From: Sphingomonas sp. Leaf357
GTDB taxonomy: Bacteria; Pseudomonadota; Alphaproteobacteria; Sphingomonadales; Sphingomonadaceae
DNA length: 64,000 bases
Assembly: GCF_001423845.1 (NCBI RefSeq)
Contig: NZ_LMPM01000001.1
Span: 1,527,493-1,591,492, forward strand
Direction of reading: 5' to 3'
Shown: positions 15,066-58,866 of the stretch, piece after piece
Layout: every line of letters begins with the position of its first letter
How positions within the stretch are numbered: position 1 is the stretch's first letter
Program-made: the position numbers and the translations under genes
Notes under the pieces: generated by a model
What the model saw: only the letters and a program-made list of their open reading frames with translations
The model's database searches: none
What the model was told of the DNA's origin: nothing

Positions 15066-15172
15066 GTCACCCCGGACTTGTTCCGGGGTCCACCGTGCCG
15101 GAAGATCGGCTGTCAGATCACTATCTGTATCGAAAGCGGCTTGGTGGACCCCGGAACAAGTCCGGGGTGACG
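15066..15172. repeat. Paired palindromic element (107 bp), type 2
   Basis: The left arm GTCACCCCGGACTTGTTCCG plus GGGTCCACC and the right arm GGTGGACCCCGGAACAAGTC plus CGGGGTGACGG are near-perfect inverted copies around about 45 unrelated bases. It lies in the 295-base gap between the convergent bamF-like and TorF genes, ahead of a bidirectional terminator. Bases 15027-15045 carry a fragment resembling the CTGAGC...GACAAGCTCAG repeat family. Confidence 0.85.
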
Positions 15173-23070: not shown

Positions 23071-23472
23071 GTCACCCCGGCCTCGTGCCGGGGTCCACCG
23101 CGCCGCGGGCTATGCCTTCAACGGTTCCAGCCCCAGCCCAACCGCAAGATCGTTCCAGAGCGGGTTTTCCCGTTCGATAAGGTTGCGCTTCCAGTAGCGT
23201 CGATAACGCTTCAATTGCTTTTCGCGGGCGATGGCGATTTCCATCGTGTCCGCAACCTCGAAACAGACGAGCCGGGTGATTGCGTATCTCCTGGTATGTC
23301 CGTCGTATGTCCCGTTGCGATGCTGGGCGATCCTGCCGACCAAATTGGACGTGACGCCAACATAAAGCGATCCGTTGTAATTGCTCGCGAGCATGTAGAC
23401 TCAAGGTAGGCGCTCAATCGTCATGTCTTGGATTTGCCGCGCAGTGGACCCCGGAACAAGTCCGGGGTGACG
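23071..23472. mobile_element. GIY-YIG nuclease gene enclosed by inverted palindromic arms
   Basis: The left arm (23071-23105) starts GTCACCCCGGCCTCGTGCCG and the right arm (about 23438-23472) is its inverted copy, ending CCGGGGTGACG; both continue into GGTCCAC...GCGC. These are the same arms as the 95-107-bp paired elements elsewhere in the window, but here 402 bp apart with a nuclease gene filling the space: its stop is at 23110 and its ancestral start at 23424. The compact layout suggests a mobile unit. Confidence 0.7.
23110..23394 (-). CDS. GIY-YIG nuclease domain protein, N-terminally truncated
   Basis: This 94-residue protein matches the small single-domain GIY-YIG family (putative endonuclease). 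LYVGVTSNLVGRIAQHR holds the YIG motif and the catalytic Arg. REKQLKRYRRYWKRNLIERENP holds the conserved downstream Glu-rich helix. Family members normally begin a few residues earlier with a GIY-type strand. Here the preceding in-frame codons read MTIERLP-stop-VY: an ATG at 23424 and a TGA at 23401-23403 fall just before the VY of that motif. It is therefore probably a decaying copy, or restarts at 23394. It lies inside inverted repeat arms. Confidence 0.75.
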   Translation of the reverse strand: MLASNYNGSLYVGVTSNLVGRIAQHRNGTYDGHTRRYAITRLVCFEVADTMEIAIAREKQLKRYRRYWKRNLIERENPLWNDLAVGLGLEPLKA

Positions 23473-35659: not shown

Positions 35660-35766
35660 GTCATCCCGGACTTGTTCCGGGGTCCGCCAAGCGGCTTTGT
35701 TTGGACATTTGGGGCCAGCGATAAGCGCGCGGAACGGTGGACCCCGGAACAAGTCCGGGGTGACGG
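35660..35766. repeat. Paired palindromic element (107 bp), type 2
   Basis: GTCATCCCGGACTTGTTCCG plus GGGTCCGCC is mirrored by GGTGGACCCCGGAACAAGTC plus CGGGGTGACGG. It lies between the convergent EF-hand and radC genes. Confidence 0.85.
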
Positions 35767-40318: not shown

Positions 40319-40673
40319 TTCGGTGAAGTCTGTACCGCCTATGCCGTCATTCCGGACTTGATCCGGGATCCAACGTGCGGCTGGGTAATGCTGTCGTATA
40401 GCGCGATAACCCCTCCTCGTTTGCCCTGAGCCTGTCGAAAAGGGTTGCTCGATAGGTGCTTCGACAAGCTCAGTACGGACGGACAAAGTGGGTGCACGGT
40501 CCGAATGGACGCGCCAGCGCTTGCGCTTGTGGAACGTTGGATCCCAGATCAAGTCCGGGATGACGGCGGACGGGGGATTGCCGTCATCCCATTGGTCTAA
40601 AGGCCGATCCCACAGCGGTTGACTTGGCGACCCCCCTTTTCTAAACGGGCGCCGCAACGGGGGTGTCGCTCCC
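40319..40673. repeat. 355-bp gap with one palindromic pair nested in another
   Basis: The outer pair is GTCATTCCGGACTTGATCCG (40346-40365) and CAAGTCCGGGATGACGG (ending 40566). Between its arms lies a second pair of another family: TTTGCCCTGAGCCTGTCGAA (near 40420) and TTCGACAAGCTCAGTACGGA (near 40460). The inner family recurs alone at 58780-58866. Bases 40570-40673 should hold the F0 operon promoter; no gene was seen. Confidence 0.8.
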
Positions 40674-43241: not shown

Positions 43242-43276
43242 TTCGTCACCCCGGACTTGTTTCGGGATCCTCCGTG
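43242..43276. repeat. Single arm of a palindromic element (degenerate)
   Basis: GTCACCCCGGACTTGTTTCG plus GGATCCTCCGTGC matches a left arm of the type 2 family, but no good right arm is found within 250 bases. It is probably a decayed pair in the 260-base gap after atpF. Confidence 0.55.
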
Positions 43277-43454
43277 CAAGGTCGGCGATTCGTATTCGGA
43301 TGACCGGACTCCAGCACCGATCCGAAGTGGCGGGCGATAAGGAGCGGCTCGTTGCGCCGCTTCCGGCCTTGATCTCACGCATTTCGAATTGCAACCAATC
43401 GCGCTAGACCTACGGCCGATGGCGAATCGTGCCATTGTCCGGAGAGCTTGATCC

Positions 43455-43781
43455 ATGAAATTCATCGTCCTTGCCGCCGTCCTGATGCTGCCTGCCGCCG
43501 CTTCCGCCCAGACCGCGGCGCCTGCGGCTCCGGCGCCTGTTGCCCCCGCCGCGCCCGCTGCCGCGACGGCCAAGTTCACGCTCGACACGCCGATCGAGGC
43601 GATCGTCGCCGATCCGGCCGGCAAGGCGGTGATCGACAAAGATCTGCCCGGTACCACGACGCACCCGATGTACGACCAGTTCAAGGCGATGAGCCTGAAC
43701 CAGGTCGCTCCGATGGCCGCAGACAAGATCACGCCGGCGGTGCTGGCCAAGGTGCAGGCCGATCTGGCGACGATCAAGTAA
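43455..43781 (+). CDS. Small secreted protein, unknown function
   Basis: This 108-residue protein has a signal peptide (about 1-19, ending ASAQ), a Pro/Ala stretch (about 20-40) and a compact C-terminal part of about 65 residues. That part (FTLDTPIEAIVADPAGKAVIDKDLPGTTTHPMYDQFKAMSL in outline) resembles short sphingomonad periplasmic proteins of unknown role. ATG at 43455 with CCGGAGAGC upstream. It stands alone between repeats; GC3 supports a real gene. Confidence 0.7.
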   Translation: MKFIVLAAVLMLPAAASAQTAAPAAPAPVAPAAPAAATAKFTLDTPIEAIVADPAGKAVIDKDLPGTTTHPMYDQFKAMSLNQVAPMAADKITPAVLAKVQADLATIK

Positions 43782-43798
43782 GGCAACCGCCGCTTTCC

Positions 43799-43893
43799 GT
43801 CATGCCGGACCGGGTCCGGCATCCAACGCGCCGCGAACTCGCCAGCGGATGATACGCGACGCGTTGGACCCCGGATCACGTCCGGGGTGACGG
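43799..43893. repeat. Paired palindromic element (95 bp)
   Basis: GTCATGCCGGACCGGGTCCG plus GCATCCAACGCG is mirrored by CGCGTTGGACCCCGGATCAC plus GTCCGGGGTGACGG. It lies between the small secreted protein gene and uvrC. Confidence 0.85.
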
Positions 43894-43960
43894 CTTCGGT
43901 TTTGGAATTGCGAGCAGCGAAGGGTGGCTTGCTCGCCCGCGAGTCCCTAAATCACCCGCA

Positions 43961-45886
43961 ATGTCCTCTCCCAACGCCCCCGACCGTTTCAACGAAGAGA
44001 AGTCCGCCTTTGCCGTTCGCGGCGGGGGCGATGCACCGGATATCGCGACGGGCGTCGCGGCGATCCGCAACGTGCTCGCGACGCTCCCGACGCGACCGGG
44101 CGTGTATCGGATGCAGGATGCACGTGGGGACGTGCTATACGTCGGCAAGGCGCGCGCGCTGAAGAACCGCGTGACCAACTACACGCAGATCGACCGGCTC
44201 TCGAAACGCCTGCAGCGGATGGTCGCGCAGACGCGATCGATGACGATCGTCACGACCAACAACGAGGCCGAGGCGCTGCTGCTCGAGGCGCAACTGATCA
44301 AGCGCTATCGCCCGCCGTACAACGTGCTGTTGCGCGATGATAAGAGCTTTCCCTTCATCCTGCTGCGCTCCGATCACGAATTTCCGCGCATCCAGAAGCA
44401 TCGCGGCGCGCGGCGCGCGAAGGGCAATTATTACGGGCCGTTCGCCAGCGCCGGATCGGTCAACAACACGCTGAACGCATTGCAGAAGCTGTTCCTGCTG
44501 CGATCATGCACCGACGGCTTCTTCAAGACGCGCGATCGGCCATGCCTGCTGTACCAGATCAAGCGCTGCTCCGCGCCGTGCGTCGGGCGGATCTCGAAGG
44601 AGGATTATGCCGATCTGAACGAGGACGCGAAGGCGTTCCTCGGCGGCAAATCCACGCAGGTGCAGGCGAAGCTCGGCAAGCAGATGGAAGCGGCGGCGGA
44701 GGCGATGGACTTCGAGCTCGCCGCAATCCTGCGCGACCGGCTGCGCGCGCTTACCTTCATCCAGGGCACGCAGGCGATCAATGCCGAGGGCGTGGGCGAC
44801 GCCGACATCTTCGCGATGGCCAATGCCAACGGCGTGATGGGCATCCAGGCCTTCTTCATCCGTGGCGGGCAGAATTGGGGGCATCGCAGCTTCTTCCCGG
44901 CGCACACCAACGATGTCGCGGAAGACGAGGTGCTGACCAGCTTCCTGATGCAATTCTACGAGGAAGTGCCGCCGCCGCGCACGATCCTGCTCGATCGCGA
45001 CCTGCCCGAGGCTGATTTGCTGGGTGAGGCATTGGGCGGTGCGGTCGGATTCAAGGTGAGCCTTTCGGTGCCGCAGCGCGGCACGCGGCGGCGGCTGCTC
45101 GAACAGGCGCAACGCAACGCGGTCGAGGCGCTGGAACGACGGCTGGCGGAAAGCACGACACAGGCGAAACTGCTGCGCGAGGTGGCCGAATTGTTCGATC
45201 TGGCCGAACCGCCCGACCGGATCGAAATCTACGACAACAGCCATATCCAGGGCACCAATGCGGTCGGCGCGATGGTCGTCGCGGGGCCCGAGGGCTTTCG
45301 CAAGGGCCAGTATCGCAAGTTCAACATCAAGAATCCGGAGACGCAGCCGGGCGACGATTTCGGCATGATGCGCGAGGTGTTCCAGCGCCGTTTTGCGCGC
45401 GCGCAGGCCGAGGATCCGGATCGCGATGCGGGCGACTGGCCCGATCTGGTGCTGATCGACGGCGGGCGCGGGCAGTTGAACGCGGCCAAGGCGGTGCTGG
45501 AGGATATGGGGATCGAGGATGTGTGTCTGGTCGGCATCGCCAAGGGGCCGATGCACGGGCGCGACGGTCGCGAAGTGTTCCACATGCTCGACGGCCGCGA
45601 GTTCCAGTTGCCGGTGAACGCGCCCGTGCTGTTCTATCTCCAGCGGCTGCGCGACGAGGTGCACCGGTTCGTGATCGGCGCGCATCGCGACAAGCGCTCC
45701 AAGGCGATCGGCGCGTCGCCGCTGGACGAGGTTCCGGGGATCGGGCCGGCGCGCAAGAAGGCGTTGCTGATGCATTTCGGCACCGGCCGCGCGGTGCGCA
45801 ACGCGAGCCTCGCCGATCTGCAACAGGCGCCCGGCGTTTCGGCGGCGGTGGCGCAGCAGGTGTACGATTTCTATCACGGGCGGTGA
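43961..45886 (+). CDS. uvrC: Excinuclease ABC subunit C
   Basis: UvrC (641 residues) makes the two incisions of nucleotide excision repair. The N-terminal GIY-YIG nuclease domain (3' cut) shows RPGVYRMQDARGDVLYVGKARALKNRV in outline. The UVR segment (KQMEAAAEAMDFELAAILRDRL) binds UvrB. The RNase-H-like nuclease domain (5' cut) has IEIYDNSHIQGTNAVGAMVV and LVLIDGGRGQLNAA. The C-terminal helix-hairpin-helix region is EVPGIGPARKKALL. ATG at 43961. Confidence 0.97.
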   Translation: MSSPNAPDRFNEEKSAFAVRGGGDAPDIATGVAAIRNVLATLPTRPGVYRMQDARGDVLYVGKARALKNRVTNYTQIDRLSKRLQRMVAQTRSMTIVTTNNEAEALLLEAQLIKRYRPPYNVLLRDDKSFPFILLRSDHEFPRIQKHRGARRAKGNYYGPFASAGSVNNTLNALQKLFLLRSCTDGFFKTRDRPCLLYQIKRCSAPCVGRISKEDYADLNEDAKAFLGGKSTQVQAKLGKQMEAAAEAMDFELAAILRDRLRALTFIQGTQAINAEGVGDADIFAMANANGVMGIQAFFIRGGQNWGHRSFFPAHTNDVAEDEVLTSFLMQFYEEVPPPRTILLDRDLPEADLLGEALGGAVGFKVSLSVPQRGTRRRLLEQAQRNAVEALERRLAESTTQAKLLREVAELFDLAEPPDRIEIYDNSHIQGTNAVGAMVVAGPEGFRKGQYRKFNIKNPETQPGDDFGMMREVFQRRFARAQAEDPDRDAGDWPDLVLIDGGRGQLNAAKAVLEDMGIEDVCLVGIAKGPMHGRDGREVFHMLDGREFQLPVNAPVLFYLQRLRDEVHRFVIGAHRDKRSKAIGASPLDEVPGIGPARKKALLMHFGTGRAVRNASLADLQQAPGVSAAVAQQVYDFYHGR

Positions 45887-45895
45887 ATATGTATC

Positions 45896-45991
45896 GTCAC
45901 CCCGGACTTGTTCCGGGGTCCACCGTGCCGCTTTATCAACGGCCTGATAGCCTGTGGGCCGGTGGACCCCGGAACAAGTCCGGGGTGACGG
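45896..45991. repeat. Paired palindromic element (96 bp), type 2
   Basis: GTCACCCCGGACTTGTTCCG plus GGGTCCACC is mirrored by GGTGGACCCCGGAACAAGTC plus CGGGGTGACGG. It begins only 10 bases after the uvrC stop, so it would form the 3' end of that transcript. Confidence 0.88.
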
Positions 45992-55091: not shown

Positions 55092-55198
55092 GTCACCCCG
55101 GACATGTTCCGGGGTCCACCAAGCGGCTTTCGAAACGAATAGAGGCTCGATCGCCCAGGTTGCGGCCCAGTGGACCCCGGAACACGTCCGGGGTGACA
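55092..55198. repeat. Paired palindromic element (107 bp), type 2
   Basis: GTCACCCCGGACATGTTCCG plus GGGTCCACC is mirrored by GTGGACCCCGGAACACGTCC plus GGGGTGACA. It lies between the divergent PMT and metZ genes, so both promoters must sit beside or within it. Confidence 0.85.
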
Positions 55199-58779: not shown

Positions 58780-58866
58780 CCGTCTGTGCTGAGCTCGTCG
58801 AAGCACTGCCTTTCTCATCTGCCGTCGAAAAGAAGGACAGCCCTTCGACAAGCTCAGGGCAGACGG
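58780..58866. repeat. Paired CTGAGC/GACAAGCTCAG repeat
   Basis: CCGTCTGTGCTGAGCTCGTC plus GAAG is mirrored by CTTCGACAAGCTCAGGGCAG plus ACGG. It is the same family as the inner element at about 40417-40487. It lies between convergent genes. Confidence 0.8.

Follow-up and report, generated by a model that had tools for sequence, protein, structure and literature searches.

Small GIY-YIG nuclease genes framed by inverted REP-type arms in Sphingomonas sp. Leaf357 and other bacteria

INTRODUCTION

REPs reach high copy numbers in some prokaryotic genomes and lie mostly between genes, according to a survey of >80 species by Di Nocera et al. from 2013 (PMC3733652). The survey defines the CGTC REPs, a super-family dominant in Alphaproteobacteria that apparently has no dedicated transposase and is unlinked to tyrosine transposases (PMC3733652). 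GTAG REPs are held to be spread by RAYTs. These enzymes cleave REP DNA in single-stranded form, and co-evolution between them and their own REPs is reported (PMC8266576).

A locus in Sphingomonas sp. Leaf357 raises the question of what a small GIY-YIG nuclease gene is doing between two inverted arms of the kind that are otherwise dispersed as short palindromic pairs. The locus lies in a 64,000-nucleotide stretch of DNA, referred to here as “the window.” The original prediction, made from the sequence of the window, was that the locus may be the parent element of the short pairs, with the nuclease taking the role of the transposase that mobilizes REPs in other systems. A literature search found no paper joining GIY-YIG with REPs, and the term “GIY-YIG” is absent from the text of PMC3733652 (count 0). 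Here, we describe the locus, its relatives in the same and other genomes, and the explanations that may account for them. In our reading, which we hold with a probability of roughly 70%, the locus is a degenerate copy of a widespread, REPtron-like unit in which a GIY-YIG nuclease takes the place of the RAYT: the gene for a small hydrolytic nuclease lies between two inverted REP hairpins, and these are of the type that its product recognizes.

THE FOCAL LOCUS

The focal locus spans positions 23071–23471 of the window (401 bp) and consists of one PF01541 gene on the minus strand (profile match, E = 9.8e-12) between inverted REP-type arms whose tags point outward. The cores of the left arm (23071–23096, plus strand) and of the inverted right arm (23446–23471, minus strand) both match GTCACCCCGGNCTNGNNCCGGGGTCC with 0 mismatches, so the claim that this gene is framed by the same inverted arms as the dispersed palindromes holds. 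When the two arms are aligned with each other, their likeness extends inward beyond the cores, covering 36 bp on each side (23071–23106 and 23436–23471).

The reading frame of the gene is interrupted. Its open part (23110–23394, minus strand) encodes 94 aa from an internal ATG and is without the GIY tyrosine. The 5′ part of the frame (23395–23424, minus strand) begins at an in-frame, ancestral ATG (23422–23424) and contains the single TGA of the ancestral frame, at codon 8 (23401–23403), directly before the V-Y of the GIY motif. Because this TGA precedes the GIY tyrosine, the focal copy is probably inactive, i.e., a pseudogene. The stop codon of the gene (23110–23112) is 3–4 bases from the left arm, and the ancestral ATG is separated from the extended right arm by 11 bp and from the core of that arm by 21 bp. 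The unit is flanked on one side by an OPT-family transporter gene and on the other by a distant mannobiose phosphorylase-like gene, whose score is below the curated cut-off. There was no NCBIfam name match for the focal protein.

The gene is absent from this site in all 29 relatives that were fetched (tblastn). In 24 of the 29, the corresponding space is measurable, and several of these carry other short pairs; the other five have no right-hand match. In the 24 measurable relatives, the sequence between the flanking genes looked unalignable by eye, and no precise junctions could be placed. The flanks of the focal site are likewise too diverged to reveal a target-site duplication.

DISPERSED ARMS AND SHORT PAIRS

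The window contains 14 focal-type arms with ≤3 mismatches, and 100 shuffles contain none. Genome-wide, there are 196 (98 on each strand), with 0 matches to a reversed-pattern control. Short inverted pairs of the focal arm type are found at 15066–15171 (106 bp), 35660–35764 (105 bp), 45896–45989 (94 bp), and 55092–55197 (106 bp). An ordinary inverted pair at 43799–43891 has a variant left arm with 5 mismatches, and a singlet arm matches the pattern at 43245 (plus strand). A short pair with a second arm type, resembling the arms of the subfamily II genes described below, lies at 58780–58866. Another pair of the second type, at ~40417–40482, is nested within a variant focal-type pair at 40346–40564; its right arm was identified by pattern and its left arm by eye. 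Here, a type I pair encloses a type II short pair, a trace left by the insertion of a short pair. The stretch from 43245 to 43891 was considered as a second gene-bearing nuclease element and rejected, being the singlet plus the ordinary pair. Since this stretch and 40346–40564 resolve to singlet, ordinary, and nested pairs, the focal pair is the sole gene-filled pair in the window.

Judged by eye, the focal pair and the other window pairs have a CGTC or TGTC tag, a stem of 8–9 bp, a CCA-like tail, and a head-to-head arrangement as dimers. These are the properties of CGTC REPs, for which the survey lists a YGTC tag, a hairpin, a CCA-like tail, head-to-head dimers, and abundance in Alphaproteobacteria (PMC3733652). 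All 25 rows of sampled short pairs, from families that overlap, are oriented with their tags outward.

By eye, the short pairs of the window share the arm itself, and the sequence immediately internal to it is also loosely similar among them. No nuclease remnant was detected by tblastn in the seven short window pairs, and none of the short pairs was shown to be an internal-deletion product of a gene-bearing form, so that the idea of non-autonomous derivatives was not borne out.

Two observations concern other arrangements of the arms. The uvrC gene (43961–45886), which encodes a GIY-YIG domain, also lies between two arms (43866–45921), with tags that point inward, unlike those of the small genes. 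In genome G001, CTGAAC-type repeats form a tandem array of three at a fixed step of 178 bp (G001:C2:572047-572427).

NUCLEASE LOCI OF THE SOURCE GENOME

The PF01541 profile matches nine places in the source genome: uvrC and eight small genes. Inverted arms frame all eight small genes and 0 of 32 shifted intervals; mispaired flanks from different loci match in 6 of 56 cases. The arms fall into several types: CCGG (L004, L005, and L008), CTGAAC (L006), CCCCGCG (L002), and three CGTTCG types (L001, L003, and L007). In a 464 kb sample, made up of 20 stretches of the genome plus the window, the arm types of L003, L004/L005, L006, L007, and L008 occur as dispersed, tag-outward pairs. The type of L002 occurs there as five single copies with no pair, and that of L001 has 0 copies.

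FRAMING IN OTHER GENOMES

To score framing, the best inverted match was taken between the 200–250 bp on either side of a gene or domain, with a threshold of 14. In a census of the genus, comprising the 112 non-UvrC matches listed from 37 genomes with doubtful members (L250, L252, and truncated genes) included, 93 genes are framed, compared with 2/369 shifted intervals. L054 was too short and was left out of the counts. When four of the genomes were examined more closely, one further subfamily I gene came to light, L328 in G019, which lacks its 5′ end, along with three weak matches to other types of gene. In other alphaproteobacterial families, 14 of 27 testable loci are framed (shifted intervals, 0/102); eight loci from this class that by eye belong to other small GIY-YIG types score 7.5–11, and 0/8 are framed. 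A set of named relatives from across phyla, the best 80 of 583, has 61 framed members (shifted intervals, 2/1228); it shares at least one gene with the genus census, since L033 and L134, the latter from a named Sphingomonas record, are the same place. Control ORFs are rarely framed: 2/160 in the named loci (1/52 for short ones), 1/52 in the window, and 1/9 in the genus loci. The enrichment that the original prediction had expected beside GIY-YIG genes in other genomes is therefore present, in 93/112 listed genus genes and 61/80 of the best 80 of 583 relatives with controls near zero, and we regard the association of GIY-YIG genes with framing arms as confirmed and as more general than first noted.

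In the 61 framed units, which come from the best 80 of 583 relatives, a median of 30 bp precedes the matched gene and a median of 16 bp follows it; 38 of these units span 340–420 bp (median, 387 bp). Below the framing score are 19 of the 112 listed genus genes and 19 of the 80 named loci, some of which have hairpins or CGTTCG arms by eye. Framed loci outside Pseudomonadota come from records with Deltaproteobacteria or Desulfobacteraceae titles (L079, L081, L083, and L126), Nitrospira (L104), Omnitrophota (L125), Uhrbacteria (L118), and Parcubacteria (L132). Unframed at the threshold are loci from Planctomycetaceae (L138), Scalindua (L120), and Nitrospirae (L141), as well as from Ignavibacteria (L116), Berkelbacteria (L093), and Sulfurovum (L106), the last three with hairpins by eye. 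Host labels in the named set are weak because most titles are those of metagenome bins. One gene labeled as from a Halobacteria archaeon (L121) has proteobacterial-looking arms, possibly through contamination. Caulobacter and its relatives (L091, L103, L109, and L140) have longer arm hairpins, of the GTCATCCCGGCCGCAGCG..GCGCCGGGACCCAGGGGC type.

Flanks that were mispaired across loci match in 127/473 cases in the named set, 62/226 in the genus, and 4/206 in the class. Such matches are frequent because many loci share arm families, and the sharing of arms by descent is therefore only partly separated out.

A homologue in Neisseria gonorrhoeae is 55.8% identical over 88% of the query and has dRS3-like repeats on both sides. 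Neisseria dRS3 repeats are CGTC-1 REPs (PMC3733652). One N. gonorrhoeae locus (L147) is in a 2.17 Mb record filed as a plasmid (NZ_CP119140.1), the size of which suggests a chromosome.

PROTEIN TYPE AND ARM TYPE

Similar nucleases are framed by similar arms. Among the 93 framed listed genes, we compared 3916 of the 4278 pairs, i.e., those from different genomes with non-homologous outer flanks. Protein identity and arm similarity are correlated (r = 0.48); 0 of 2000 permutations reached this value, the highest being 0.13. Similar arms become commoner with increasing protein identity, being found in 0–1% of pairs below 40% identity and in 74% at 70–80% identity (34 pairs).

Two subfamilies, labeled from motifs judged by eye rather than from a tree (as are the “other types” above), differ in their arms. 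CGTTCG arms frame 24/24 framed genes of subfamily II (“GHTDNLERR”; 29 listed genes in all) and 0/69 framed genes of subfamily I (“YVGVTSNL”; 83 listed genes in all), with the CGTTCG class defined by a stricter tag rule that was set after a looser rule had misplaced five subfamily I loci. Of the subfamily I arms, 47/69 have a strict YGTCR tag; the remaining 22 include four GTCA arms shortened by the alignment and several of GTTCC, GTGCC, or CCACC type. Overall, the tags of nuclease-framing arms are GTCA/GTCG, CGTTCG, or others, not GTAG. A perfect stem of at least 6 bp is present in 56/93 upstream arms, compared with 93/1860 shuffled ones. The catalytic residues are conserved in the 93 framed listed genes: the GIY tyrosine in 92, the YIG tyrosine in 93, the arginine in 93, and the glutamate in 91.

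REPEAT COPIES AND GENE PRESENCE

We compared repeat copy number with gene presence in 41 genomes of the genus, counting a gene as present where it is among the matches listed in the census. Three repeat types were considered: (i) a CGTTCG variant is present in at least one copy in 16/24 genomes with a subfamily II gene versus 1/17 without (Fisher p = 9e-5); (ii) the CTGAAC type is present in at least five copies in 8/8 genomes with a gene so framed versus 6/33 without (p = 3e-5); (iii) the CCGG type is present in at least five copies in 10/11 genomes with a CCGG-framed gene versus 17/30 without, a weak co-occurrence (Fisher p = 0.064; rank test, 0.014). One genome counted as without (G003) has a gene (L230) with a CCGG-type frame by eye, the right arm of which is split by another palindrome; moving G003 to the “with” group, a post hoc step, gives p = 0.033.

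Four genomes have no small gene among the census matches listed: G013, G014, G015, and G019. In G013 and G014, genes of both subfamilies are absent, the only matches being weak ones of another kind, and all three patterns have 0 copies. G019 (86% complete) has the 5′-truncated subfamily I gene L328, and its copy numbers for the three repeat types are 20, 6, and 4. Genomes rich in the repeats with no such nuclease had been named as evidence against the original prediction, and they exist in part. In G015 (83% complete), no small GIY-YIG gene was found alongside 22 CCGG and 3 CTGAAC arms; G036 (58 copies) and G040 (67 copies) are rich in the focal arm type and have no gene framed by it, but hold other small GIY-YIG genes. 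Repeats thus track genes across genomes imperfectly. For RAYTs, too, repeats are described as outlasting the enzyme: REPINs are commoner where a RAYT is present, and REPtrons may be absent through deletion, as in many E. coli strains (PMC3733652).

INHERITANCE AND SITE HISTORIES

The nuclease genes sit between other genes, both in the source genome and at the rnc-era site described below. Among the 112 listed genes from 37 genomes, all 43 pairs with at least 80% DNA identity have homologous flanks, which indicates that the genes are mostly inherited in place; at 75–80% identity, the flanks are homologous for 94 of 118 pairs of listed genes. Recent gene-bearing copies at unrelated sites, as expected of an IS or transposon, were not found in this set. 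For 10 gene pairs, dN/dS is 0–0.40, with 7/10 at ≤0.12; another 4 of the initial 14 pairs were dropped for unequal length. The nuclease genes are under purifying selection and kept at fixed sites, like RAYTs, and a jumping parent element therefore fits them poorly.

At none of the sites compared did a gene-bearing unit appear to have inserted with a clean junction. The rnc-era site, where the ribonuclease III and Era genes adjoin, is measurable in 22/29 relatives, 13 of which carry the gene (tblastn), one of them (L265) without one arm by eye. Among the nine sites without the gene, three have almost nothing (L270, L280, and L281), one has a type I short pair (L274), and one a type II short pair (L277). 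In L276 and L282, the site is occupied by a type II short pair and another small gene, whose product looks secreted by eye.

A second site, on Sphingobium plasmids, offers the clearest case of presence and absence. The unit lies between fnrL and a response regulator gene in 7/11 close records, 4 of which were aligned. Of the four records without the unit, two have one symmetric REP and two have no REP; S. herbicidovorans has none at the fnrL site. The single REP, slightly degraded in TomTYG74, sits where the arms would fuse at a shared 8-mer, ACCCCGGG. We read this polymorphism as deletion between the arms that left a one-REP scar; alternatively, the REP may have been there first. By eye, no target-site duplication was seen in the plasmid alleles. 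For a Rhizobium plasmid gene, no empty site was found among the records retrieved, which matched one flank only. Filled and empty states of one site, which the original prediction proposed to look for, therefore do exist, with the clearest example reading as loss. One allele at the fnrL site (L290, Sphingobium sp. TomTYG73) has a one-base deletion in the GIY-YIG gene relative to the aligned sisters.

POSSIBLE MECHANISM AND COMPARISON WITH REPtrons

The unit resembles the REPtron (RAYT/TnpA-REP) in several ways. First, the enzyme gene is bordered by REPs and inverted short pairs are dispersed. Second, a genome has separate gene-repeat duos. Third, the gene is vertically kept and does not proliferate, and the repeats outlast a lost gene. 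It differs in that the REPtron combines an HUH/Y1 enzyme with a GTAG tag, whereas here PF01541 is combined with CGTC or CGTTCG tags, and in that there are several units per genome, some on plasmids. The parallel with RAYTs drawn by the original prediction therefore stands for anatomy, co-variation, and inheritance; it does not extend to a transposing, gene-bearing parent, given the shared flanks of 43/43 pairs. Relative to the CGTC REPs of the survey, which sees no dedicated transposase for them, the difference is that the repeats here frame GIY-YIG genes (PMC3733652).

What the data show is association, co-variation, selection, and inheritance; the steps that follow are proposed. The nuclease would bind the folded arm, most likely when it is single-stranded during replication, repair, or DNA uptake, and would nick the DNA at the tag or close to it (CGTTCG for subfamily II, otherwise CGTC). 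Host repair of the cut could then cause short pairs (REPINs) to be lost, converted, or copied to new sites. The short pairs would depend in trans on the nuclease of their host genome, in the way that REPINs depend on RAYTs, and the gene would seldom move. GIY-YIG enzymes are hydrolytic and are not known to have a strand-transfer step; any copying step would need host repair. Cutting of the arms by the nuclease is a likely prediction, while a role in spreading them is putative and unproven.

More broadly, small GIY-YIG nucleases may be the dedicated, co-evolving enzymes of CGTC- and CGTTCG-type REPs across bacteria, driving their turnover and spread by nicking and host repair. REPs would then have a second kind of driver besides the HUH enzymes, acting in trans and encoded by genes that are inherited vertically. 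We advance this generalization tentatively and give it a little short of an even chance.

ALTERNATIVE EXPLANATIONS

A serious contender, to which we assign appreciably less than an even chance, is that the nuclease is owned by the host and reads repeats without any mobilizing role. A 2025 Nature Communications paper reportedly describes Ssn, a Neisseria family of GIY-YIG nucleases that are specific for single strands and have numerous homologues and matching sequences, and the Ssn of N. meningitidis is said to cut single-stranded NTS repeats and to modulate transformation. An enzyme of this kind would tune DNA uptake, recombination, or repair; the gene-side repeats would be a means of self-control or relics, and the spread of the repeats would have another cause. 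Inheritance in place and purifying selection suit this explanation, as do the reported cleavage and transformation effect of Ssn. So does the gonococcal homologue (55.8% identical), which may be Ssn, with dRS3-like, i.e., CGTC-1 REP, repeats on both sides. However, the co-occurrence of repeat number and gene is easier to understand with some role in repeat turnover, and an rnc-era site that, depending on the species, holds almost nothing, either type of short pair, or a full unit likewise favors such a role.

An unlikely alternative is a classic transposon with terminal inverted repeats, in which the entire 400 bp unit transposes and gives rise to the short pairs by internal deletion, in the manner of MITEs. 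The fairly regular geometry (38/61 framed units at 340–420 bp among the best 80 of 583 relatives), the tag-outward orientation of 25/25 short-pair rows, the site polymorphism, and the nested pair at 40346–40564 are all compatible with it. Against this, there are no recent multi-copy gene-bearing units, the 43/43 close pairs of listed genes share their flanks, and tblastn detects no nuclease remnant in the seven short window pairs.

It is very improbable that a RAYT or other HUH transposase spreads the repeats, with the GIY-YIG genes merely among them. RAYTs are held to do so for GTAG REPs, but the Y1/HUH transposase profile PF01797 matches in just 3/41 genus genomes and not in the source genome, even though the repeats are abundant, and we reject a RAYT as mover on this scarcity; the survey also describes CGTC REPs as unlinked to tyrosine transposases (PMC3733652). 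Least probable of all is chance or generic placement, with REPs acting as terminators near any short gene: REPs are mostly intergenic (PMC3733652), and uvrC too lies between two arms, but those arms point the other way, protein type predicts arm type, and we reject this explanation on the counts for control ORFs (2/160; short, 1/52) and shifted intervals (2/1228).

IMPLICATIONS AND RELATED OBSERVATIONS

If the REPtron-like reading is correct, an arrangement like that of RAYTs and REPINs would have evolved on two occasions, each time with an unrelated enzyme. With a nuclease matched to each repeat type, the question of the missing CGTC-REP enzyme becomes directly testable, and many natural nuclease-target duos are on offer, with eight gene loci in the source genome alone. 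The 2025 report on Ssn may cover part of the link between GIY-YIG genes and repeats. Should it deal with flanking repeats in general, that link is not new; new in that case would be the identity of the repeats as REPs, the existence of a second arm class that goes with its own protein subfamily, the test of co-variation, the finding that the genes are inherited as RAYTs are, and the histories of individual sites. The likeness to Ssn lies in a small GIY-YIG family with Neisseria homologues, the gonococcal one being flanked by dRS3-like repeats. There is a likeness to UPF0213 as well, in that the domain is the same and the two solved structures that were matched, 1zg2 and 1ywl, are UPF0213 proteins.

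Public annotation of the small nuclease in L291 and other Sphingobium plasmid records is “excinuclease ABC subunit C.” At L001, L011–L021, and other loci, the reading frame of the subfamily II gene continues toward a TrmJ/YjtD-like methyltransferase, a call that rests for L001 on a match just below the curated cut-off and for the others on a frame length of about 350–450 aa; given this in-frame run, fusion or read-through is possible.
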